Below are positions 22,209 to 60,948 of a stretch of DNA of 64,000 nucleotides, in pieces (positions within the stretch are counted from its first letter, which is position 1; each line of letters opens with the position of its first letter). Below the pieces are notes generated by a model. It saw only the letters and a list, made by a program, of their open reading frames with translations. It was not told the DNA's origin and did not search any database. The position numbers and the translations under genes were made by a program. The stretch is from the IMG/VR virus record IMGVR_UViG_3300025096_000008, positions 1 through 64,000 of that record; one strand, written 5' to 3'. This DNA is from a virus.

Positions 22209-22519
22209 AATACGATAAACTCGTTCGAGATAAAGTACCACATCGTCTAATAAAGGAGAAGAAGGTATTCTCATGCCGAGAGGCACTGAAAGAGGAATAC
22301 TTAGATTATGTTGATGACGCATTGCTTGAGCATGTAAATGGCTATTTGGAGAATCGATCTCTCGAAGCACTGGCAGAAGTCTTGGAAGTGGTGTATACTC
22401 TTTCTCTTGAGCTGGGATACACCATCGACGAGCTTATGGAAGAAAGAATCCAGAAAGAGGCTGACCTTGGGGCATATTACGAGGGAATCATCCTAGAGGA
22501 AGTGAAAGAAGATGATTAA
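22205..22519 (+). CDS. MazG-like nucleotide pyrophosphohydrolase
   Basis: 104 residues starting MKYDKLVRDKVPHRLIKEK, the hallmark of the phosphoribosyl-ATP pyrophosphohydrolase-like MazG subfamily. The metal-binding helix acidic residues lie in LKEEYLDYVDDALLEHVNGYLENRSLEALAEVLEVVY (ExxxD-type, here EEYLD / EVLE). Such enzymes hydrolyse non-canonical or signalling nucleotides and are frequent in phages. It overlaps the polymerase gene by ATGA and the following gene by 8 bases. Confidence 0.8.
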   Translation: MKYDKLVRDKVPHRLIKEKKVFSCREALKEEYLDYVDDALLEHVNGYLENRSLEALAEVLEVVYTLSLELGYTIDELMEERIQKEADLGAYYEGIILEEVKEDD

Positions 22520-23354
22520 TGTGATTGGCTTGGGCAAAGTCGGATGTGCTATAGCCGAGAAGTTTAGAAAGCATCCCCAGTATGAAGTATATAAGATAGG
22601 AGCAGGGCTTCCCGATAAGGATAATAAGAACTGCTTTTCCATCAAGAAGAGATCGGCACCAGAAGACTACGAAGATAAGTTCCCAGCAAGGGTTACGAAT
22701 GCTCTCAAGAAGATTGACGGTGACATTCTCTTTGTGGTTTCTGGCGGCACAGATATTTCCTCAGCATCGCTAAGAATACTGGAGGCAGTAAGTCCGAGAA
22801 GGATAGAGGTACTATACATAAAGCCAGACCTTACTGACGATCATTCAAAGAACCTCGACAGAGTGGTATCTAATGTATTCCAGGAATATGCTCGCTCTGG
22901 GCTATTCGAGAGACTCTATCTTATTTCAAATTCCGCAATCGAAAAAGTCATTGGGAATATTCCGATTGGCAGATATCAAGACACGATCAATGAATTTGTC
23001 TCTTCCACCATTCATATGCTAAATGTCTATAGAAACACCGAAGCAGTAATGTCCAGCTACCCAAAGGAGTCTGGTATTTGCCGGATTTGTACTATAGGAA
23101 TCGGTGAGATGGAAAAAATGGCAGATCAGATGTGCTTTTCTCTTGACAATGTGAACGAAAAGAGCTATTATTTTGCTATAAACAAAAAACAGGTAGATAA
23201 TGATTCTGATCTCCTCTTTAGGGTAAAGAAGAGAGTAACACAAAAAGACGAGGACATAAAAGTAGGTTTTGGAGTATACTCAACGGAATATGACAAGAAC
23301 TACATCTATATTGTTTCTCAAACAAAGATAATTCAAGGAGTAAACTATGGTTAA
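22512..23354 (+). CDS. FtsZ/tubulin-like or Rossmann nucleotide-binding protein
   Basis: 280 residues. It begins MINVIGLGKVGCAIAEKF, a strand-Gly-rich loop-helix as in FtsZ or NAD-binding folds, followed by ILFVVSGGTDISSASLRILE (~70-92), placed like the tubulin signature GGGTGSG, and IEVLYIKPD. The C-terminal third (KSYYFAINKKQVDN, VGFGVYSTEYDKNYIYIVSQT) is beta-rich. Similar proteins are, to my memory, common but uncharacterised in marine T4-like phages. It lies between MazG-like and SSB genes. GTPase or filament function is a hypothesis. A plain dehydrogenase-like Rossmann fold is the alternative. Confidence 0.6.
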   Translation: MINVIGLGKVGCAIAEKFRKHPQYEVYKIGAGLPDKDNKNCFSIKKRSAPEDYEDKFPARVTNALKKIDGDILFVVSGGTDISSASLRILEAVSPRRIEVLYIKPDLTDDHSKNLDRVVSNVFQEYARSGLFERLYLISNSAIEKVIGNIPIGRYQDTINEFVSSTIHMLNVYRNTEAVMSSYPKESGICRICTIGIGEMEKMADQMCFSLDNVNEKSYYFAINKKQVDNDSDLLFRVKKRVTQKDEDIKVGFGVYSTEYDKNYIYIVSQTKIIQGVNYG

Positions 23355-38967: not shown

Positions 38968-39648
38968 ATGGTGTCTAGAGTTTTTACCCTCCCCATCGTG
39001 TTATTAGCAGCCATATTTTTCCTGGGTGCTGGGTGTGTATCTCTTGGCGAAGATGTTAAAGTTCGACCTGCTTCCTGTGAGGAAAAGAGCGAGATAACGA
39101 GGATACCAGGATGGGATATGTCCTATCAGATAGAACCATCCTGTAGCCTCCCGGATCCAGCCGACACATCGCTAGCATTACATGTTTTCTACATGGAGTG
39201 GTATAAAAGATTCGGAGATAAGTCGAACATCGTGCTCAAGAACTTGAACAGGATGACTATTGAGTGGCGACTAGAAAAGATGGTATTCAACAATGGCTAC
39301 CGGATGGACGGCACTTTCATAGAGCAAGGGACAGCAATTGGACTTACATTAGATAAAGATTATGTCGTTGTTTATTTAGGTCCAGGAGAAAAAGTACCAG
39401 ACACATCTCTGATTCACGAACTTGTCCATGCCTCGATAAGGGTTCTCTCTCCAGATAATCGAGGAGACCCAGACCACGAAGGTGGCATATACCCTGGATG
39501 GACAGAAAACCATACACGACTCATAAAAGAAGCAAACGAAATTTTAAAATTGATGGATTTAAGAAATGCCGAAAAAGATAAAAAAGACTACGAAGTCTTC
39601 CAAACGAGCGAAAAAAGACCTACAACAAAAAATGAACATGTTCGATAG
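38968..39648 (+). CDS. Lipoprotein zinc metalloprotease-like protein
   Basis: 226 residues. Signal peptide MVSRVFTLPIVLLAAIFFLGAGC with lipobox Cys23. The gluzincin/metzincin-type motif is TSLIHELVHASIRVL (HExxH at ~150-154), with DHEGG and WTENHTRLIKE downstream able to give the third ligand. It would be anchored in the host outer or inner membrane and could act on envelope proteins during lysis or adsorption. Its 3' end overlaps the next gene by 83 bases. Confidence 0.75.
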   Translation: MVSRVFTLPIVLLAAIFFLGAGCVSLGEDVKVRPASCEEKSEITRIPGWDMSYQIEPSCSLPDPADTSLALHVFYMEWYKRFGDKSNIVLKNLNRMTIEWRLEKMVFNNGYRMDGTFIEQGTAIGLTLDKDYVVVYLGPGEKVPDTSLIHELVHASIRVLSPDNRGDPDHEGGIYPGWTENHTRLIKEANEILKLMDLRNAEKDKKDYEVFQTSEKRPTTKNEHVR

Positions 39649-42676: not shown

Positions 42677-44242
42677 ATGAAAAATTATGATGACGGCAGC
42701 TCTTTATCACAAAAAATTCTAGACGGAGTTAACAAGTTGGCGGACAATGTTGCCGCCACAATGGGACCAAGGGGCAGGAATGTTGTTATCCAGCCTAAGA
42801 ATGGAAATCCGATCATAACCAAAGACGGGGTAACAGTAGCACGGTTCATAGACTTTACTGACCCATTCGAAAATGTCGGTGCCCAAGTAATCAAACAGGC
42901 AAGCGAAGAGACGAACACCAGTGCTGGTGACGGCACCACCACAGCCATCGTCCTCTCTCGGGCAATCTTCATTGAGGCACAGAAATACATCGCTGCTGGA
43001 GCATCTCCAGTTGAGCTCAAACGAGGCATCGACAAGGCATCAGCCGTTATCGTAAATAACCTCCGAGCCAGTGCCAAGAGGGTGACGAAGCTGGACGACA
43101 TTGAAGACATCGCCACCATCTCGGCTAACGGTGATCGGACAATAGGAAAGCTCATCTCCACAGCCATCGACATGATCGGCAAAGACGGTTCAATAACCAT
43201 CGAGGACGGCAAGTCGCTAGAGACTAGCCTAGATGTAGTTGAGGGCTTTCGCTTCGACAGCGGCTATGCCGCCAGTGCCTTTATCACTGATGAGCGGAGA
43301 GGAGTTCTAAAATATAACGATCCTCTCTTCCTAATCACAGACGAAAAGATTGAGTTCGTGGAAGACATCCTCCCAGCACTAGAACTGGCGGCACGAGATG
43401 GTCGCCCCATCGTCGTCGTAGCAGAAGAGATTGAGGGTCAAGCTTTAGCGGCAATGATTATGAATACGGTGAGGGGAACGATGAAGGTCGCCGCCATCAA
43501 GGCACCTCGCTACGGAGACGAGCGAAGGAACATCCTCCAAGACTTGGCTACCAGTGTCGGTGCCACTTTTGTAACCAGGGAGTCAGGGCTCAGTCTTCGT
43601 GATATCAAATTGACTCACCTCGGAAACGCTAAAACGATTGAGGCATCAAAAATAGCCACAACCATCGTTGGCGGCAACGGGGATACTGCCCAGGTAGAAC
43701 AAAGGATTGAATCTCTTAAATCACTCTTTGAGCAGACAGACAACATGCAGGCTTGTGAGAGGATCCAAGAGAGGATTACTAGATTGGCTAGCGGCATTGC
43801 TATCATTAGTGTGGGGGGCAACACTGAAATAGAGATGACGGAAAAGAAGCATCGCATCGAAGATGCTCTTGAGGCAGTGAAGTCAGCTCAGCAAGAGGGG
43901 ATGGTATGTGGCGGAGGCATGGCACTCCTGTCGGCAGCCCGAGGTGTGGAGATACAGGCAGATAACTCTGACCAGGAATATGGTGCTCAGATTGTGCTCA
44001 AGGCGATTCAGGAGCCCTTGCGGCAAATGGCGGCTAATGCCGGCAAGAAGCCAGATGTCTTGTTAGATGGAGCTCTAGGGCTTGACGAGGGCTATGGCTT
44101 CGATATGTCAACAGGTAATACGGTGGATCTGCTGGGTAGCGGGATCATAGATCCAGCAAAAGTAACCAGGTGTGCTCTTCAGAATGCTGTATCGGCAATA
44201 GGGACACTTATTACTACGAGTCACGCCATTATCGAGGACTAG
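42677..44242 (+). CDS. groEL: GroEL-type chaperonin (HSP60)
   Basis: 521 residues, close to bacterial GroEL (548). Equatorial motifs: VAATMGPRGRNVVIQ, ITKDGVTVAR, SAGDGTTTAIVLSR (catalytic Asp region). Apical domain: EGFRFDSGYAASAFITD, FLITDEKIEF, IVVVAEEIEGQALAAMIMN, VAAIKAPRYGDERRNILQDLA. C-terminal equatorial: EGMVCGGGMALLSA, GYGFDMSTG, IIDPAKVTRCALQNAVSAI. The GGM-rich tail of bacterial GroEL is missing (ends HAIIED). Phage GroELs are rare, and this one looks intact and probably folds phage proteins together with the GroES-like protein at 31023. Confidence 0.96.
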   Translation: MKNYDDGSSLSQKILDGVNKLADNVAATMGPRGRNVVIQPKNGNPIITKDGVTVARFIDFTDPFENVGAQVIKQASEETNTSAGDGTTTAIVLSRAIFIEAQKYIAAGASPVELKRGIDKASAVIVNNLRASAKRVTKLDDIEDIATISANGDRTIGKLISTAIDMIGKDGSITIEDGKSLETSLDVVEGFRFDSGYAASAFITDERRGVLKYNDPLFLITDEKIEFVEDILPALELAARDGRPIVVVAEEIEGQALAAMIMNTVRGTMKVAAIKAPRYGDERRNILQDLATSVGATFVTRESGLSLRDIKLTHLGNAKTIEASKIATTIVGGNGDTAQVEQRIESLKSLFEQTDNMQACERIQERITRLASGIAIISVGGNTEIEMTEKKHRIEDALEAVKSAQQEGMVCGGGMALLSAARGVEIQADNSDQEYGAQIVLKAIQEPLRQMAANAGKKPDVLLDGALGLDEGYGFDMSTGNTVDLLGSGIIDPAKVTRCALQNAVSAIGTLITTSHAIIED

Positions 44243-46286: not shown

Positions 46287-46727
46287 ATGACTAAACTAAC
46301 TAGAAACCATTACTTTCCGTCCATCATGGGGCAATCGGTGCTGGACTCGATCTTCGAACAGTTGATCGTTCGCTCGCCAGATTGGTCCGGCGAGGTCACC
46401 AAGAAATCCACAGAAGGATATCCTCTTACGGACATCTACAAGGACGAGGAAAACAATCAGGTAATCGAGGTAGCTCTCGCTGGCTTCTCCAGGGAAGACT
46501 TGAAGGTGGAAGTGAGGGATAACTACATTACGATTTCTTGTGAATCCATCTCAAAAGGAGATACAACCTCACGACGAATTGCTAGGAGGTCTTTCTCGAA
46601 GTCGTTCGTTGATTATGAGAATCAGCTTGATTTGAATAAGTCCGACGCATCCTTCGAGAATGGATTACTGAGGGTTACTATCCCCCCTACCGAAGAGGCG
46701 AAACCAACTGTTATTTCGATTGGGTAA
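46287..46727 (+). CDS. hsp20: HSP20 / small heat-shock protein
   Basis: 146 residues. The alpha-crystallin domain spans ~48-140: PLTDIYKDEENNQVIEVALAG, FSREDLKVEVRDNYITISCE, the RSFSKSFVDYENQ block, and the A-x-(F)-x-N-G-L box ASFENGLLRVTIP with an IxI-like end (VISI). Holds unfolding proteins; known in many cyanophages. AAAGGAG ribosome site. Adds to the chaperone set of this phage. Confidence 0.92.
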   Translation: MTKLTRNHYFPSIMGQSVLDSIFEQLIVRSPDWSGEVTKKSTEGYPLTDIYKDEENNQVIEVALAGFSREDLKVEVRDNYITISCESISKGDTTSRRIARRSFSKSFVDYENQLDLNKSDASFENGLLRVTIPPTEEAKPTVISIG

Positions 46728-46744
46728 AATTTGGTATGTATAGA

Positions 46745-46775
46745 AAAACACACTTCGGTGTGTTTTTTCTTTTTT
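46745..46775 (+). terminator. Terminator after HSP20
   Basis: Stem AAAACACAC / GTGTGTTTT with a TTCG tetraloop and TTCTTTTTT tail. Confidence 0.92.
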
Positions 46776-46838: not shown

Positions 46839-47045
46839 ATGCCTGAAAACGAACATAGCAAGCTCTACGTGAAGACGGGATGCCTAGTATGCTTAAATAA
46901 ATCGTATGCGTGTTCGTATTGTGACGGTGTTGGTAGTGTTTTTGTTGAAGCATCAGATAAAACTGTCTCAAAATGGCTCAGTCAGTTGACAGATGACAGA
47001 AGGCAAGATATAATAAATATGGCAGCAATAAAGGAAGGCGATTAG
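46839..47045 (+). CDS. Small zinc-knuckle-like protein
   Basis: 68 residues with GCLVCLNKSYACSYCDGVGS: two CxxC pairs close together, the second followed by a DnaJ-like DGVG. A direct repeat surrounds the start: GTGCCTGAAACGAACA (46820) and ATGCCTGAAAACGAACA (46839). The GTG copy runs out of frame after 8 codons, so ATG 46839 is chosen. Confidence 0.6.
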   Translation: MPENEHSKLYVKTGCLVCLNKSYACSYCDGVGSVFVEASDKTVSKWLSQLTDDRRQDIINMAAIKEGD

Positions 47046-47062: not shown

Positions 47063-49018
47063 ATGATAATCAGAAAGATATGGATGTTTCTTATAACGAT
47101 GATGGCACTTACGAGTGCATGTAATTGTGACGATGACCTTCTCTCTTTTTCATGTCCAGAGCCTATTCCGTGCCTAAATCTTTCTGACGGTGGTATATAT
47201 GTTTTCGATGACGACATCATTTCCCGAGCAAAGGGTGAGTGCGAACTCGGCAATACCACCTGTGATGCCCTAAACCGACAAATCTGCGTCAACGAGATAA
47301 AGCCCGTTGATGAAGTGTGTGACGGTCTGGATAACGACTGTGACGGCACCATAGACAATGGGCTATCCACTGATGCCGACGGTGATTTGTTCAATGACTA
47401 TTGGTCATGCCTAAAACCTGTTGATTGTGACGACAGCGACCCATACATCCACCCGAATGCCTCTGAGACTTGTGATGGCATTGACAATGACTGCAACGGT
47501 GAGATAGACGAGCTTGGTCCTTATGAGTGCTGGACTGGCGAATCTGACTCCGTTTTCGAAGGAACCCCATGCCAGACTGGGATAGTTTCATGTGTCGCTG
47601 GAGCCTGGACCGGATGTGAAGAACAGGTGTTACCAGCACACGAATTGTGTGATCTTGTTGATAATGATTGTGACGGGGAAGTAGACGAAGACTCTTGGCT
47701 AGAGGGATTTCCTTGCGGTCCAGACACTACTGTCGGGCAATGCTCTTACGGCAGAAATTCGTGTGTTGACGGAGAGCTCCTCTGTATTGATGCCCAGTAT
47801 TCCCAGAACGAAGTATGTGATGATATCGACAATGATTGTGACGGCATCATTGATAACGATTTGGAAAGACTCTGTGAGTCTGAGTGTGGAATGGGCATAG
47901 AGTTCTGCTCCTATGGCTCTTGGGGCGGCTGTACGGCACCATCACCAGGGATAGAATATTGTGATGGTGTTGATAATGACTGTGACGGAGAGGTGGACGA
48001 GAACTGTCCCTGTGTAGAGGGTGATGCCCAGACATGTCAAGAGGATCCTATGATGGATCAATACACGGGTGTTATGATGAGTTGCGGCATCGGAATCCAA
48101 GTATGTGACAACTTCGGAGTGTGGGGAGAGTGCTTTTGGTTTGGTCCATCTGTCGAGGTATGTAACAATTGGGATGACGACTGTGACAACATCATAGACG
48201 GAATGGAAGTCATATGTGGTGTCCAGCCAGAGGAGAATATGGGAGTTGGAGAGTGCAAAGCCGGAGTTACTATTTGTACAGCCGGTGAGTTTGGCGAATG
48301 TGTTGGAGAGATAGTGCCAACAGAGGAAGTGTGTGATGGCTTAGACAACGACTGTGACGGAGAAGTAGACGAAGATCTAAATATCCACGACAGAGTAGAT
48401 ATGGTATTCGCCATTGATATTTCCGGCTCTATGACTTCATACATTATTGCTCTCGCCCAGGGCATCTCGAACTATGTAGCAGACTTCGAAGACACAGAGC
48501 ATCGCTTCGCTCTTGTTCTATTTCCAGACTATCCAGACGGCTTGGGCGGAAATGGGGATCCCTACATTGTTGCAACGGCGCCCCCTCTGGTTGATGTAAA
48601 TACCTTCCTTAATACACTGACATCTATAAGTGCCCAAGGTGGAGGGTACGAACCATCCATAGATGTGATGTATGACCTGGCGGATCCCACCGACCCTGCT
48701 GGTATCGGCTGGAGAGAAGATGCCTACCCTTACATAATCTTGATCAGTGACGAGCCGGCACAGAGCTGGTCCTCACTCCAAGCATCTTCGGTGTATCCGA
48801 GTGCTCACAACTGCCAGATTGGTTCTTGTGAGCCCGGCGACGAGATAGAGACATTTATCATAAACAAGACACAGTTCTTTTTCGGCTTCCATGAGATAAT
48901 TTATGGAGATCCAGACAGATATTATGAAATTTCCCCACCTGACGGAAATCGCTATACCGAAGTCCTAAACGACATATTCGCCAATATCTGTTTATACGAA
49001 GCAGATGGTGGTGCATGA
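47063..49018 (+). CDS. Secreted lipoprotein with seven MopE-type repeats and a von Willebrand A domain
   Basis: 651 residues. Signal peptide MIIRKIWMFLITMMALTSAC with lipobox Cys20. Residues ~85-440 contain seven repeats of the form E-x-C-D-x-x-D-N-D-C-D-G-x-x-D-E/N, a putative metal-binding repeat known from MopE-like proteins and abundant in Myxococcota and relatives. The sixth copy is degenerate (EVCNNWDDDCDNIIDG). Between them are GxCxxGxxxC spacer modules. Residues ~445-640 form a vWA domain with MIDAS DISGSM (~451), then ALVLFPDYPDG and a late Thr/Asp region (ILISDEPAQ). It would sit on a host membrane or the particle. It looks host-derived and intact. Confidence 0.9.
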   Translation: MIIRKIWMFLITMMALTSACNCDDDLLSFSCPEPIPCLNLSDGGIYVFDDDIISRAKGECELGNTTCDALNRQICVNEIKPVDEVCDGLDNDCDGTIDNGLSTDADGDLFNDYWSCLKPVDCDDSDPYIHPNASETCDGIDNDCNGEIDELGPYECWTGESDSVFEGTPCQTGIVSCVAGAWTGCEEQVLPAHELCDLVDNDCDGEVDEDSWLEGFPCGPDTTVGQCSYGRNSCVDGELLCIDAQYSQNEVCDDIDNDCDGIIDNDLERLCESECGMGIEFCSYGSWGGCTAPSPGIEYCDGVDNDCDGEVDENCPCVEGDAQTCQEDPMMDQYTGVMMSCGIGIQVCDNFGVWGECFWFGPSVEVCNNWDDDCDNIIDGMEVICGVQPEENMGVGECKAGVTICTAGEFGECVGEIVPTEEVCDGLDNDCDGEVDEDLNIHDRVDMVFAIDISGSMTSYIIALAQGISNYVADFEDTEHRFALVLFPDYPDGLGGNGDPYIVATAPPLVDVNTFLNTLTSISAQGGGYEPSIDVMYDLADPTDPAGIGWREDAYPYIILISDEPAQSWSSLQASSVYPSAHNCQIGSCEPGDEIETFIINKTQFFFGFHEIIYGDPDRYYEISPPDGNRYTEVLNDIFANICLYEADGGA

Positions 49019-49031
49019 CTCTCGAAGGAGG

Positions 49032-49041
49032 CACTACTTAC
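49032..49041 (+). promoter_or_regulatory. CACTACTTAC box between ribosome site and start
   Basis: The box lies between GAAGGAGG (49024-49031) and ATG 49046, so a transcript starting here would lose that ribosome site. A weak case. Confidence 0.25.
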
Positions 49042-49045
49042 TGGT

Positions 49046-49324
49046 ATGATGACGGACTTTAAAGATTCGAACATGCGACAGAAAAAAGTGCTTGACTTTC
49101 ATGCGGGAGATCTGGTATACTTAAAAAGTGATCTCTCTCTGAGATCGGGAGTTGGGTTGATTTTATCAACAGAATTCAGGAGTTTTGATATACACGACTT
49201 GAGAGATCATAAGGCAGGAAAGTCGTTTTCTGTGCTGCTACCAAAGGTGTATGTTTGGTGGACCCAAGGAGATAAGAAGCTTTGGATGGACGAGCAAGAT
49301 CTTTGCTTGTTAGAAAAGAGCTGA
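49046..49324 (+). CDS. GDLV-motif small beta-barrel protein
   Basis: 92 residues: VLDFHAGDLVYLKSD, then GVGLILS, and VYVWWTQGDKKLWMDEQDLCLL. Clear relative of the 53232 gene product (HDFHPGDLIEDRKTG... FYVWWMD). ATG 49046 or 49049. A chance sigma70-like element (TTGACT at 49092, TATACT at 49116) lies inside the coding region. Confidence 0.65.
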   Translation: MMTDFKDSNMRQKKVLDFHAGDLVYLKSDLSLRSGVGLILSTEFRSFDIHDLRDHKAGKSFSVLLPKVYVWWTQGDKKLWMDEQDLCLLEKS

Positions 49325-49335
49325 GCGGAGATAAG

Positions 49336-49875
49336 ATGATAGTTTCTAATATTTTACTCATGTTTTTCATTAGCTCTGGCGATGTCAGTGCTACCAATTT
49401 TTCTATGAAAGTTAGGGGGTATGAAAACGGAGAGCCTAAGCCTCTCTATGTATCTTCCATCCTACAGAAGAGAAAGGCGAAGACACTCCTTCTGTCACGA
49501 GATGCTTCTGATAATTTTAGAGAGATGGTTGTACAGGCAGCGAAGGATGGATTCCACCTAGATGTACTCAGTGCCTTCCGTACCCACGGCGAACAGCATC
49601 GGATGAAGAGGCAGAGAGGTGATTTAGCAGCTCCGCCCGGCTGGAGCAATCACCAAATGGGACTGTCCATCGATGTGGGCGGCACAACTAGAATCATGCA
49701 AGGGAAGAGATATAGGACAATCTTGTATTGGTGGATGAAGCGAAATGCCAAGCGGTATGGATTCTACAATGATGTGGAAGCGGAACCATGGCACTGGACA
49801 TTCTACGGAGATAATCCGCCACCCCCCAAAAAGAAGGTGAGAGAATCACCAAAGGAGAAAAGTGATAATGTCTGA
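49336..49875 (+). CDS. Endolysin: M15 (VanY-type) D-Ala-D-Ala peptidase with signal peptide
   Basis: 179 residues from ATG 49336. Signal-like start MIVSNILLMFFISSGDVSA. Zinc-peptidase motifs: LDVLSAFRTHGEQ (~77), SNHQMGLSIDVGG (SxHxxGxAxD type, ~103, first His and Asp ligands), and EPWHWTFYG (~152, last His). It cleaves peptidoglycan cross-links. The secretory signal suggests sec-mediated export (signal-arrest-release or periplasmic). The C-terminus is Lys/Pro-rich. The holin-like gene overlaps its 3' end by 8 bases, making a lysis cassette. Confidence 0.88.
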   Translation: MIVSNILLMFFISSGDVSATNFSMKVRGYENGEPKPLYVSSILQKRKAKTLLLSRDASDNFREMVVQAAKDGFHLDVLSAFRTHGEQHRMKRQRGDLAAPPGWSNHQMGLSIDVGGTTRIMQGKRYRTILYWWMKRNAKRYGFYNDVEAEPWHWTFYGDNPPPPKKKVRESPKEKSDNV

Positions 49876-50149
49876 AGAAAAACAAGAAGAAACAAACAAA
49901 GAGAAGGAAGAACAAGTTCCCAGCCCTGATAGGTACGGTCTTTTGTGTATCCTAGCTTTCGCAATGCTTATTTCGTCCTTATTTACGGCAAGCACATTCA
50001 TGGTTAAGGTGTGCCTAATCTGGATGTTCGTTCTTCGTAGCTATGGACTTTTGGTCAAGAAAATGAATAGAGAGTGGTTAGCAGTTATTTTATATGGTTC
50101 GTGCTATGTATATTATGCTACTCAGGTTTATCCCACTGGGATACTATAA
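49868..50149 (+). CDS. Holin-like membrane protein
   Basis: 93 residues. Charged N-terminus (SEEKQEETNKEKEEQ) followed by two or three hydrophobic helices (YGLLCILAFAMLISSLFTAS, VKVCLIWMFVLRSYGLL, WLAVILYGSCYVYYATQVY). ATG 49868 is favoured over GTG 49862 by spacing from AAGGAG. Size, topology and overlap with the endolysin gene suggest a holin. No family signature. Confidence 0.6.
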   Translation: MSEEKQEETNKEKEEQVPSPDRYGLLCILAFAMLISSLFTASTFMVKVCLIWMFVLRSYGLLVKKMNREWLAVILYGSCYVYYATQVYPTGIL

Positions 50150-51580: not shown

Positions 51581-52681
51581 ATGGCATCAGTAGATTTTAA
51601 AACGTTTCTTTCAGCAGCCCCCGTCGTCCTTGGGGCTCGATACCCTGTTATCCTTCGAGGTCGCCACGGCATCGGCAAGTCAGAAATAGTCTACCAGATT
51701 GAGGAAATGCTGGGATACACTGATGGTGTTATCGAGAGACGAGCATCACAGATGACGGAGGGTGATTTGATTGGCTTGCCGTCAATCTCCTCAGATTCTT
51801 CATCAACCCGATGGAATCCACCAGATTGGTTCACGGAAGCATGTTCCCGTGGAGTGCTGCTCTTTCTAGACGAGATAGACAGAGCAATCCCAGAAGTGAG
51901 GCAGGGAATTTTCGAGCTCACCGATAGTCGGAAGATCAATGGGTACTCTCTACACGAGAATACTGTCATCGTTGCAGCCGTCAATGGCGGAGAGCACGGT
52001 TCGGAGTATCAAGTGGGAGAGATGGATCCAGCAGAACTGGATCGATACACTGTTTTTGATGTGGAGCCCACAGTCGAAGATTGGCTAACATGGTCGAAGG
52101 GGGAAGTTTCGGAAGTGGTATGGGATTTCATCAACCAGAATCGAAGCCATCTTGAGCACCTGGATAACTTCGAGCCGAACAAAGTATACCCCAGCCGACG
52201 ATCCTGGGTCCGGCTCGACAAGACACTCAAGACATGTCCAGACCAGCTAGCTCAGATGCACGAGCCTCTACTCTTCACTCTCTCTCAGGGTTTCGTCGGC
52301 TTCGAAGCTGCAATCGCTCTCAGAGATTTCGCCATCAATTATGGCAAACAGGTTACTGTTGAGGATGTTATCCATGAAGGCAATGTTTCGATGACGAAAG
52401 ACTTCGACATCAATGAGCATGGTGCCTTGATTGAGAAGATGGAAGCTTCTGGAATATTCAACACTCTCTTGTCTGAAAGCAATCTCTCGAATCTCGCTGG
52501 ATATTTTGTATCGGTCCCAGGCGAAATGGCAATGAAGCTGTTTAGCATCATAGGAAAGTCTCCATTGAGAGAGAATATTCTCAGCTTTCACGGCACAGAA
52601 GTGGAAGGAAAGCGGATCGGCGATCATGTTGTGTCCTTGGTCTCGAATATGGCAGATCAGGAAGCCGTAGAGCAGCCGTAA
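51581..52681 (+). CDS. MoxR-type AAA+ ATPase
   Basis: 366 residues. Walker A RGRHGIGKSEIVYQ (~26-39), MoxR-like QMTEGDLIGLPS (~63), Walker B VLLFLDEIDRAIPEVRQGIFEL (~90), sensor 1 VIVAAVNGG (~129) and MDPAELDRYTVFDVEP with Arg finger. C-terminal lid and helices follow. MoxR ATPases remodel proteins together with a vWA partner; such a partner lies at 53467-54642, with a metallopeptidase gene between. Confidence 0.88.
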   Translation: MASVDFKTFLSAAPVVLGARYPVILRGRHGIGKSEIVYQIEEMLGYTDGVIERRASQMTEGDLIGLPSISSDSSSTRWNPPDWFTEACSRGVLLFLDEIDRAIPEVRQGIFELTDSRKINGYSLHENTVIVAAVNGGEHGSEYQVGEMDPAELDRYTVFDVEPTVEDWLTWSKGEVSEVVWDFINQNRSHLEHLDNFEPNKVYPSRRSWVRLDKTLKTCPDQLAQMHEPLLFTLSQGFVGFEAAIALRDFAINYGKQVTVEDVIHEGNVSMTKDFDINEHGALIEKMEASGIFNTLLSESNLSNLAGYFVSVPGEMAMKLFSIIGKSPLRENILSFHGTEVEGKRIGDHVVSLVSNMADQEAVEQP

Positions 52682-52722
52682 GTGCTTGATTAATAAGGGA
52701 CAAAAAAACACTAAAAAAGAGC

Positions 52723-52751
52723 TTGACAGAGTTGATCTCCTGTGATATGGT
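52723..52751 (+). promoter_or_regulatory. Sigma70 promoter inside the MoxR/vWA cassette
   Basis: TTGACA (52723-52728), 17 bases containing TTGATCTCCTGTGA, then TATGGT (52746-52751). Confidence 0.75.
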
Positions 52752-52783
52752 ATTATATTCACAGGCAAAGAAGGAGCACTAAT

Positions 52784-53245
52784 ATGCCATATAAGAGCAA
52801 ATACAGCAAGAACATCAATAAGTTAGTAAAATGGGCGAAAGAAGTCAAGCAGATCACTGTTGTTTTTGCCACAGGTCAGGTAGATAGATACATGCCAGAA
52901 GATAGGCTAATCATAATCAACGAAACTCAGAACGGTGAAAATCAGCTCTACACTCTCCTGCACGAAGTGGGTCACTCAATGAATAGAGAGACCGGTAATC
53001 TCGCCTATCGCTATGGCAAATATAAACTGTTAGCTAAATCAGATGAGACAGGCAAGCCCATCAAGTCATATGCCTACAGAGTCCAACTTCTTGATGAGGA
53101 GATGCAGGCATGGAAGAACGGCAAAGAAATTGCCGAAGGTCTTGGAATGAAGCTAGATGAACGGGCATACGAGAACTGTGCCGCCAAGTGTATTATGTCG
53201 TATATCGACTGGGCTGCCGAAAGAGAGTGGAATGCGCCGGCATGA
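52784..53245 (+). CDS. Small zinc metallopeptidase (HExxH)
   Basis: 153 residues from ATG 52784 after AAGGAG. LYTLLHEVGHSMNRETG (~55-70) holds the HExxH motif. LLDEEMQAWKNGKEIAEGLG (~107) provides the acidic third ligand (EExxAW pattern as in small phage metallopeptidases). No signal peptide, so cytoplasmic. Lies between MoxR and vWA genes and may belong to the same system. Confidence 0.78.
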   Translation: MPYKSKYSKNINKLVKWAKEVKQITVVFATGQVDRYMPEDRLIIINETQNGENQLYTLLHEVGHSMNRETGNLAYRYGKYKLLAKSDETGKPIKSYAYRVQLLDEEMQAWKNGKEIAEGLGMKLDERAYENCAAKCIMSYIDWAAEREWNAPA

Positions 53246-53477
53246 TTTCCATCCAGGAGATCTGATCGAGGACCGGAAAACCGGGCTAATCGGTCTTGTC
53301 TATGGAGTCCATCAGGATCCGTACAACATCACCAAGGGACGAGGATATTTCTATGTCTGGTGGATGGATAACTCCAGAGGATACAGAAAGAGCCTGGTCT
53401 CACCCACAGATAAGCGAGTGAGACAACTGGGTAAGAAGCTTAAAGAGAAGAAAGTGGTGAGGAACAATGTCGTTTGA
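53232..53477 (+). CDS. GDLI-motif small beta-barrel protein
   Basis: 81 residues: MRRHDFHPGDLIEDRKTGLI, GLVYGVH, FYVWWMDNSRGYRKSLVSP. Same family as the 49046 gene product. Overlaps the metallopeptidase gene by 14 bases and the vWA gene by 11 bases. Confidence 0.65.
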   Translation: MRRHDFHPGDLIEDRKTGLIGLVYGVHQDPYNITKGRGYFYVWWMDNSRGYRKSLVSPTDKRVRQLGKKLKEKKVVRNNVV

Positions 53478-54642
53478 TTTGAACAAACATATATTCAGGC
53501 TCCTACAGGATGAGCCGTTTTTTGCTGCTCTTTCTCGGCGAATTGATAAGAGAGAAACTCTAGGGGTACCCACGGCTGGAATAGGAATCAACCCAGACTC
53601 CGGTCAGTTCGAGATGTTTTATAACCCCCAGTATTTCGACACCCTCACTGATCAACAGAAAGCTGGTGTCATCAAGCACGAGTTCTACCACCTTGTTTTC
53701 GAACATGTTACCGAAAGACTTCCAGAAGAGGGAATGTCTCCGATGTGGAACATTGCTACAGATCTTGCTATCAACGGATTTTTAAAGAGTGAGCTACCTC
53801 CAAAGTGCTGTATTCCAGGAGTTGACGATTTCAGCGAGATGATCCCACTCCAAACAGCGGAATGGTACTTCGAAGAGCTTAAGAAGAGGAAGGAGAAGGA
53901 TCCAAGTTTTATGTCTCCTCAGTCGGGCTCAGAAGTGGGCTCCGGAAGCCCAGAGGGTCAGTTCGATAGCCACGAATCTTGGGGCAAAAGTGATTCTCAG
54001 ACCAAAGAAATAGCCAAAGAGAGATTCAAAGACATGGCTAAGAAGGCTGTCGAGGAGTGTGATAAGGGGCGAGGCTGGGGCTCTCTATCTCACAGCATCA
54101 GAGAGCAGATTCGGACAAAGGTGAACTCTGCCACGATTGACTGGCGAAAGATGCTTAGATACTTCGTGAGGACATCTCAGGCATCATCTAAGAAGTCTTC
54201 TATCAAGCGAATTAACCGCCGATACCCATACATACATGCCGGCAAGAAGTCAGAGCGACAGGCAAGGATAGCTATTAGTATTGACCAGTCTGGCTCGGTA
54301 AGCGATAGCCTTCTTGAGCTTTTCTTCTCAGAGCTTGAGGCTCTCGCCAAGATTGCAGAGTTTGTAGTGGTTCCATTCGATGACTTGGTTTATACTGACG
54401 AAGTATTTGTCTGGAAAAAGGGTGAGCGCAGAGAACTGAATAGGGTTCTAAGAGGGGGAACCAATTTTGATGCCCCAACAGAGTATGTGAATCAACATAA
54501 GTTTGATGGTCATCTGATATTGACAGACATGTATGCTCCGATGCCAAAGGCTTCTAAATGCCAGAGAGCTTGGATAACGGACTCGAACGGAGCATCGATG
54601 CCTTACTTTAAGACCAAAGAGAGGGTGTTGGTACTAAAATAA
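53467..54642 (+). CDS. vWA protein with N-terminal metallopeptidase-like domain (DUF2201-type)
   Basis: 391 residues. N-terminal domain: TAGIGINPDSGQFEMFYNPQ, then AGVIKHEFYHLVFEHVTERL with HExxH (~72) and WNIATDLAINGFL. Linker with Gly/Ser ~160-175. C-terminal vWA-like domain: ARIAISIDQSGSVSDSLLELF (~270, MIDAS DxSGS), FVVVPFDDLVYTDEV, LRGGTNFDAPTEYV, GHLILTDMYAPMP. This two-domain form pairs with MoxR ATPases in many bacteria; MoxR is encoded at 51581. Likely remodels or matures metalloproteins, or acts in conflict (inference). Confidence 0.85.
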   Translation: MSFDLNKHIFRLLQDEPFFAALSRRIDKRETLGVPTAGIGINPDSGQFEMFYNPQYFDTLTDQQKAGVIKHEFYHLVFEHVTERLPEEGMSPMWNIATDLAINGFLKSELPPKCCIPGVDDFSEMIPLQTAEWYFEELKKRKEKDPSFMSPQSGSEVGSGSPEGQFDSHESWGKSDSQTKEIAKERFKDMAKKAVEECDKGRGWGSLSHSIREQIRTKVNSATIDWRKMLRYFVRTSQASSKKSSIKRINRRYPYIHAGKKSERQARIAISIDQSGSVSDSLLELFFSELEALAKIAEFVVVPFDDLVYTDEVFVWKKGERRELNRVLRGGTNFDAPTEYVNQHKFDGHLILTDMYAPMPKASKCQRAWITDSNGASMPYFKTKERVLVLK

Positions 54643-59748: not shown

Positions 59749-60948
59749 ATGAAGCTATTGTTTGAGAACTGGCGAAGCCACCTAGAAGAAGGAATAAGCG
59801 ATATCGTCTATCACGGCACCAGCCTAGGTAGACTATCGGATATCGCCAAAGGCAACCGACTTATGACATCTGGTGTCTTCGGTGCTGATGCTGAAGAGAT
59901 CATCGGCAAGGGAAAGTTCTACTTTCTCTCTACGGCACGGTCCCCATCAGCCTTCAAGCATGGATATCCTTTGGTCAAGGACGGCAAAACTCGTATCACT
60001 CTAGACGGCAAGAAGATCGGACAGAAGTATTCGGGTGGACCAATAGATTACTGGCGGGATCGAACTAAAGGCGGCAAGTCAGAGATGGAAGATAGGATCA
60101 TAACAGACGATCCTTGGATAGAGAATGCTGCTGATTACATTACAGAGATAGTCGTCTACCTTCCGATCCTCAGAGGAAAGGCAACTGATTCAGACAGCAT
60201 CCTAGGATCAATTGCATCGGACAAGCCGACAAAATATGAATACATTCCCAACCGAGATATTGGATTTGCCGATATCAAAGCTCTAAAAGAGGTAAGCGAT
60301 TTTGCTCAATCCCACGGGATCCCTCTAAAGATAATACCGACAGAAGAAAAAGAAAGTGAGTTCTATATGAACAACCAGCCCTCAGCAGTATCCCACGACG
60401 AATTCGATAAAATGAGAAAAGAGTTAGACATAGACCCAGAGGAAAAAACACATCGTGGGAAGGAGCGAGATGCCTTCCACATAAAGCTAAGGAATGCGTC
60501 ATCCTATTCTCTTCTTCCTCCACTAATGGAACTGACCAAGATGCTGGATGCCGGCAACTTTAACTCATCCTCATCCGAGAAATGGTTTCCAACGAAAGAG
60601 GACATGCTGGAGGTCAAAACAGATTTGTACGAGTGGTCCAAGAAGCCAGACTTTGAGGAGTATCCACTACCAGAGTATGATGAGCCCGAAAAGCGAGAGC
60701 TACGAAGGAAGTTCCTGGAAGGGCAAGTGATAGTTACCAAGGAAGACATCGATGATGTTGAGGAAAGGCTCACTCGGTTTAAAAACGAGGCAGCCAGTGT
60801 GTTCGGTACCGACTTTCTAAGTGCTAGGACAGATCCTCGCCGAAGACCCTTCATTCAATTCTTTACGAAATACATGAGAAGCAAAAAGCTTGAGAATGTC
60901 ACTGAACTAGTCAAGCATCTAGAGCAAGAGCTCAGAAAAACTATTTAG
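59749..60948 (+). CDS. ADP-ribosyltransferase-like protein with candidate capsid-targeting leader
   Basis: 399 residues. Leader-like N-terminus MKLLFENWRSHLEE matches that of the 33062 protein (MKKIINEWRQYLNE) and resembles T4 internal-protein targeting peptides. Residues ~18-100 look like an ART fold: ISDIVYHGTSLGRLSDIAKG (YHGTS, first strand), KFYFLSTARSPSAFKHGY (~57, the 'F-S-T-S' strand), and GKTRITLDGKKI. The catalytic Glu is not certain; candidates are in ITEIVVYLP (~127). C-terminal half helical and charged. Analogy with T4 Alt (packaged, modifies host RNA polymerase) is inference. Confidence 0.6.
   Translation: MKLLFENWRSHLEEGISDIVYHGTSLGRLSDIAKGNRLMTSGVFGADAEEIIGKGKFYFLSTARSPSAFKHGYPLVKDGKTRITLDGKKIGQKYSGGPIDYWRDRTKGGKSEMEDRIITDDPWIENAADYITEIVVYLPILRGKATDSDSILGSIASDKPTKYEYIPNRDIGFADIKALKEVSDFAQSHGIPLKIIPTEEKESEFYMNNQPSAVSHDEFDKMRKELDIDPEEKTHRGKERDAFHIKLRNASSYSLLPPLMELTKMLDAGNFNSSSSEKWFPTKEDMLEVKTDLYEWSKKPDFEEYPLPEYDEPEKRELRRKFLEGQVIVTKEDIDDVEERLTRFKNEAASVFGTDFLSARTDPRRRPFIQFFTKYMRSKKLENVTELVKHLEQELRKTI

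Follow-up and report, generated by a model that had tools for sequence, protein, structure and literature searches.

A family of predicted MopE-repeat/vWA surface lipoproteins in uncultured T4-like phages and its association with exported proteases

The stretch analyzed here, called the window, comprises positions 1-64,000 of an IMG/VR record of 87,182 bp (~87 kb) and encodes a 651-residue predicted lipoprotein combining seven MopE repeats with a C-terminal vWA domain. The protein belongs to a large, previously unannotated family of surface lipoproteins encoded by uncultured T4-like phages with a common replication core. Since most of the large phages carrying the gene also encode a membrane-anchored protease, the protein probably serves to modify the infected bacterium's surface.

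The record is a T4-like phage contig, because it encodes a T4-like major head protein, tail sheath and tube proteins, UvsX, a DnaB-type helicase, and a Pol III alpha-type polymerase. Within it, the MopE-vWA gene is a single intact open reading frame with no internal stop (Table 1). A contaminating bacterial segment, raised as a possibility when only the sequence was read, is unlikely because the same gene, its neighbors, and its promoter recur in contigs of other metagenomes (L002-L005) and because the sequence composition is continuous.

Table 1. Features of the MopE-vWA gene region and of its putative partner; positions are those of the window.
Feature	Position	Strand	Remarks
HExxH metallopeptidase-like exported protein, putative partner, lipoprotein-type N terminus	38968..39648	+	homologs adjoin the MopE-vWA gene elsewhere
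Terminator-like hairpin after HSP20	46743..46768	+	upstream of MopE-vWA promoter
Small CxxC (zinc-finger-like) ORF	46839..47045	+	inverted together with MopE-vWA gene in L006
Perfect sigma-70 promoter, TTGACA-17-TATAAT	46986..47014	+	12/12; 48 nt before ATG
MopE-vWA lipoprotein gene	47063..49018	+	651 aa; PF11617, vWA model, lipoprotein N terminus
Signal peptide up to lipobox Cys20 (...ALTSAC)	47063..47122	+	sequence; family N termini
Stalk, seven MopE motifs separated by small Cys/beta modules	47312..48373	+	PF11617, shuffles, model
vWA head	48377..49015	+	alignment, AlphaFold2 model, Foldseek
ACTACTTA motif, possible phage-specific promoter element	49033..49040	+	between MopE-vWA gene and g49046-VanY genes
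VanY-type D,D-carboxypeptidase (PF02557), probable endolysin	49282..49875	+	neighbor in close relatives only

Several other genes of the window were recorded. GroEL (42677-44242) and HSP20 (46287-46727) each have a strong sigma-70-type promoter ahead of them, and the GroEL is less than 46% (at most about 45%) identical to the best phage copies among the matches listed. A MoxR-type AAA ATPase gene (PF07728) and, after it, one for a DUF2201 metallopeptidase/VWA-like protein (51581-54642) form a pair that is conserved in L003-L008, L054, and the MAG phage contig L176. Two proteins had no Pfam match: a conserved one (22512-23354), possibly tubulin/FtsZ-like, with an N-terminal GLGxxGCxIAEKF nucleotide-binding-like motif and counterparts among the neighbors at L061/L079, and a 399-residue one (59749-60948) that recalls ADP-ribosyltransferases by a YHGTS-type stretch close to its N terminus.

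The sequence-only reading had described a 651-residue phage-borne lipoprotein with a clean signal peptide, seven EVCDGxDNDCDG-type repeats, and a vWA domain with an intact MIDAS. This architecture was confirmed by the intact reading frame, the PF11617 match, and the modeled vWA fold. The N terminus is predicted to be that of a bacterial lipoprotein, with a signal peptide and a lipobox cysteine. In 61 of 64 distinct relatives, a hydrophobic segment leads up to [GASTN]C (forming a canonical lipobox in 42 of these), and none has Asp at position +2. The lipoprotein N terminus is thus backed by the family, although the lipobox of the window protein (LTSAC) is slightly noncanonical.

The seven repeats were likewise confirmed by motif count, by shuffling, and by profile. 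The MopE motifs lie at residues 84, 135, 194, 250, 298, 365, and 422 (codons beginning at 47312, 47465, 47642, 47810, 47954, 48155, and 48326), whereas 2000 shuffles of the same protein gave a mean of 0.002 motifs and a maximum of one. PF11617 matched six stretches at 108.3 bits (E 2e-31) against a curated cut-off of 27, placing the protein in this family. Metal binding by the motifs may be expected from the Pfam family. The full-length model, of low accuracy (pLDDT 76, pTM 0.41) and used for modular outline only, places small beta modules between successive motifs.

The vWA head was modeled with higher confidence. The AlphaFold2 model of residues 439-651 (pLDDT 88, pTM 0.88) has the Rossmann-like fold of the vWA/I-domain superfamily with a DxSxS MIDAS, and Foldseek aligned it with integrin I domains (E 2.5e-8); the best PDB matches of the head are integrin I and beta-I domains. 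The curated Pfam vWA cut-offs were not reached by the window sequence, which scored 14.8-15.9 bits in a single-sequence scan of the whole protein and, for the domain alone, 19.0 (VWA_4) and 18.2 bits (VWA) against 27 and 23.8; PF00092 was matched by 26 of 36 family members. In an alignment of 36 divergent phage vWA domains, D452, S456, E530, D534, R551, D563, E564, Q567, and C643 are invariant, and S454, W550, and the full D-x-S-x-S pattern (D452-x-S-x-S456) are nearly so, which leaves WR and DExxQ motifs conserved across the family. The vWA domain by itself held no conserved stretch of 7 to 10 columns. The claim of an intact MIDAS stands for the DISGSM motif, but the Thr used by most vWA domains is apparently replaced in the family by the invariant Glu (E530).

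This replacement may parallel integrin beta3, whose MIDAS uses E220 instead of Thr. The E-x3-D and WR-x11-[ST]D spacing of the phage proteins equals that of E220/D224, W238/R239, and D251 in integrin beta3, as a match in sequence spacing rather than a structural superposition. When the family profile was compared with PDB chains, integrin beta-8 came first (E 1.2e-4), with the WR...TD segment and DxSxS aligned. We regard this as an integrin-beta-like feature rather than integrin family membership, because PF00362, the integrin beta family, matched none of the 36 members at E 0.01. The vWA domains of flagellin-like or related proteins in Myxococcota genomes (L173, L174) share a WR-type or R-x-x-A motif and are without the MIDAS Glu.

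The family is widespread among uncultured phages. At least 187 viral stretches encode it in one IMG/VR scan (187 confirmed, 80 kept), and a second scan with a distant member as query gave 73 loci; the contigs reach 281 kb and the proteins span 420 to 800 residues. Three diverse members had no match among the 50,697 phage records of INPHARED, so that the statement that the protein is not a known phage part is borne out for cultured phages, and our literature search turned up no account of phage MopE proteins. A tree of the vWA domains resolved three clades. The gene is under purifying selection, as first suggested from its full length and signal peptide, with dN/dS of about 0.1 (0.12 against L002 and 0.09 against L004). 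It is also accessory, being present in 6 of the 23 contigs of the window's polymerase lineage that measure 40 kb or more, and its position varies: beside GroEL/HSP20 in the clade of the window, after UvsX in L016/L017/L020, between ThyX and a g31295 homolog upstream of the polymerase in many contigs, and antisense beside RNR in L062-L081. In L006, the small CxxC ORF and the MopE-vWA gene are inverted as a pair between the same flanking neighbors.

Judged by sequence similarity, the closest homologs are this family of uncultured phages and not Myxococcota proteins. The proposed myxobacterial type therefore holds for the MopE repeats, which are common in Myxococcota (56 of the best 80 cellular matches), but not for the whole architecture. 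Most cellular matches stop at about query residue 440-490, past the MopE part. Among 284 Myxococcota genomes, scored on the best 10 candidates per genome, one held a phage-type full-length vWA, and that one was a phage contig binned into a MAG. The only full-length cellular homologs found are two tandem lipoproteins (L084, 9578-13849) in a groundwater 'Ca. Uhrbacteria' MAG, on a contig that otherwise looks chromosomal; they fall inside the phage clade of the window and represent either bacterial use of a phage-type protein or a misbinned contig. Because most cellular matches stop past the MopE part, the one positive genome in 284 owes its match to a binned phage contig, and the Uhrbacteria pair is nested among phages, the gene, once considered the best host clue in the window, points only weakly to Myxococcota-like bacteria. 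Host assignment by other routes was tried and set aside: the best INPHARED relatives are distant and disagree (Microcystis, Rhodothermus, and Flavobacterium phages for the capsid, Streptomyces phages for the polymerase), GroEL stays below 46% identity to the best phage copies listed, and the sole MAG link is one binned contig.

In the clade of the window, to which promoter conservation is confined, the MopE-vWA gene has its own near-perfect sigma-70 promoter, which suggests early or independent transcription. In L002, L004-L006, L008, and L009, 11-12 of its 12 positions are retained while the spacer varies, and in L006 the promoter travels with the inverted unit. In the window, 13 distinct sigma-70 sites with at least 11 of 12 matches are present on the + strand, four of them perfect, and none on the - strand. 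A different motif, ACTACTTA, occurs 10 times on the + strand and twice on the - strand, ahead of several structural genes and of the g49046-VanY genes; occurrences at 1231, 4842, 10756, 12506, 33034, 38957, 49033, 51490, and 54644 often lie 10-40 nt ahead of start codons. The sigma-70 promoter on one side and ACTACTTA on the other suggest that MopE-vWA and VanY belong to different expression classes. T4-type late promoters (TATAAATA) were uninformative, with a single + strand occurrence in the record as a whole.

Exported proteases recur around the gene. Trypsin-like lipoproteins (PF13365), which keep the catalytic H/D/S and the N-terminal Cys, lie beside it in L010, L015, L023, L035, and clade B, and an HExxH family with mostly lipoprotein-type N termini directly adjoins it in L019, L049, L050, L064, and L172/L175; the window homolog of this family is 38968-39648. 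A protease lies within three genes of it in L010, L015, L019, L023, L035, L049/L050/L064, L172, and clade B, loci that represent all three vWA clades, and several genomes have the two genes widely separated. Of the 29 contigs of 100 kb or more that have the MopE-vWA gene, 26 encode such a protease (of the serine type in 23 and the metallo type in 3, with none carrying both), all but G292, G353, and G355, compared with none of eight contigs without the gene at E <=1e-30 or two of eight at E <=1e-6, the weaker serine-protease matches being in G294 (5e-8) and G334 (1e-21). Fisher's test gave p 4e-6 (strict) or 8e-4 (loose), with kinship between contigs ignored. In the first co-occurrence test, 5 of 17 gene-positive contigs had no such protease, namely four fragments and the 159-kb G292. 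The association is strongly suggested rather than proven, because contig relatedness is uncorrected in this phylogenetically structured sample, the set of eight contigs without the gene is small, and the profiles were built partly from neighbors of the MopE-vWA gene.

A DUF5658 membrane protein lies at most two genes away in 11 of the 13 distinct loci that have one. It is absent from the window record, and the literature search found no paper on DUF5658 or on IMG genome 2716884848. Two further observations concern the proteases themselves. In clade B, an M50 site-2 protease (L072, 1658-2458; PF02163, 6.5e-57) adjoins a small TM protein and a trypsin-like lipoprotein in an envelope-protease island, and on the contig of L021 a trypsin-like lipoprotein gene (G341:C1:139305-140081) has two in-frame TAG codons, indicating a pseudogene or stop-codon recoding.

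MopE-vWA is probably a metal-dependent binding or adhesion protein, in line with one of the possibilities raised by the sequence-only reading. Our favored, still tentative, reading is that it is a surface-anchored, MIDAS-dependent binding lipoprotein that works with a surface protease to block or destroy a structure on the host surface, in superinfection exclusion or surface remodeling. It fits best because the protein is a large, predicted exported MIDAS lipoprotein with a host-type promoter (in the clade of the window), an association with proteases, and no tie to lysis or virion genes. The infected cell would export the lipoprotein through Sec/Lsp and anchor it in the outer membrane, after transcription that in the clade of the window would be early or independent from the strong sigma-70 promoter. 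Seven metal-stabilized MopE modules would form a stalk holding up the vWA head, whose integrin-beta-type MIDAS would bind an acidic ligand through a divalent metal. The putative partner would be a phage lipoprotein protease, trypsin-like in most lineages and HExxH metallopeptidase-like in others, as possibly here (Table 1), and a small DUF5658 membrane protein may also take part in some. MopE-vWA would hold or mark this structure as the protease cuts or inactivates it, such that the infected cell and its debris stop binding phage or a host surface function is turned off. Weighing against this reading are the small size of the exclusion lipoproteins known so far, the restriction of the conserved sigma-70 promoter to one clade, the accessory distribution of the gene, and the gene-positive contigs in which the protease is distant or absent. 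A more specific version, which we put forward with greater reserve, is an undescribed surface-remodeling system in which the integrin-beta-like MIDAS/MopE lipoprotein recruits an interchangeable serine or zinc lipoprotein protease (with DUF5658 in some lineages) that cleaves particular host surface proteins during infection.

The main rival is that the protein is an adhesin or a modifier of predation or motility, its integrin-like display altering adhesion or disturbing host vWA machinery such as myxobacterial CglB. The integrin-type MIDAS speaks for it, and MopE proteins are abundant in Myxococcota, where CglB, a vWA surface protein, mediates substrate binding in Myxococcus gliding (PMC13104615). 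This reading does not directly explain the protease association, and we consider it unlikely.

Less likely still is a spanin-like lysis role, in which the lipoprotein, endolysin, and small membrane proteins would break the outer membrane late. VanY and a small membrane protein (49862-50149) are among the next genes in the window, small TM/coiled-coil proteins adjoin the MopE-vWA gene in L010, L012, and L023, and the exported proteases could degrade envelope links. However, VanY adjoins the gene in close relatives only (L002-L006, L011), the pair is inverted relative to VanY in L006, the gene sits among replication genes in other lineages, and no consistent linkage to holin/endolysin genes was found. 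Exported or TM neighbors overall were not significantly enriched (p 0.13), and MopE-vWA and VanY differ in their promoter-like motifs. VanY thus probably lies outside the MopE-vWA unit, and the lysis cassette, first prompted by this downstream gene, was rejected as the main reading.

A virion component, such as a tail or capsid decoration binding the host, is very improbable. The adhesion-type head would suit it, and the phage vWA proteins matched by fold include at least one with a virion-structural annotation, but a lipoprotein signal would take the protein out of the cytoplasm, where tailed virions assemble. In most lineages, moreover, no structural gene adjoins it, and in the clade of the window it is preceded by a sigma-70 promoter of its own; the virion surface module once proposed is unlikely for a protein presumably exported by Sec/Lsp. 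Passive cargo, a recently acquired host gene without a role in infection, is already disfavored as the least credible reading, for despite the Myxococcota-like MopE parts and the accessory distribution, the family forms deep phage-specific clades with invariant residues, dN/dS of about 0.1, at least 187 viral stretches, and recurrent protease and DUF5658 partners.

The family would bring an integrin-beta-like adhesion module to viruses of bacteria and offers a candidate molecular mechanism for how lytic phages could change the exterior of the infected cell. It also suggests a testable partner rule of one exported protease per phage.

Among known systems, MopE-vWA shares seven matching motifs with the MopE-repeat proteins of PF11617, whose matched cellular members mostly are without a phage-type vWA. 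With integrin beta I-like and alpha I domains it shares the vWA fold and the DxSxS MIDAS, but the sequence relation is weak, and the DExxQ motif and MopE stalk are absent from integrins. CglB, likened here by description, is also a bacterial surface protein with a vWA domain, but it is chromosomal and part of a gliding complex. In complement factor B and C2, a MIDAS-type vWA domain docks a trypsin-like protease onto its substrate. The mechanism proposed here is drawn by analogy with these proteins, in which both parts belong to one vertebrate polypeptide, whereas the phages would use separate lipoproteins as putative partners. Superinfection exclusion has a precedent in T5 Llp and Cor, phage lipoproteins made early that block a receptor (PMC9586334). 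Like T5 Llp and T1-family Cor, to which we liken it by description, MopE-vWA is a phage-encoded, predicted exported lipoprotein, presumably apart from the virion and perhaps of early-type expression; Llp and Cor are small receptor plugs, whereas MopE-vWA proteins have 420-800 residues, a putative metal-binding stalk with a vWA head, and an association with proteases.
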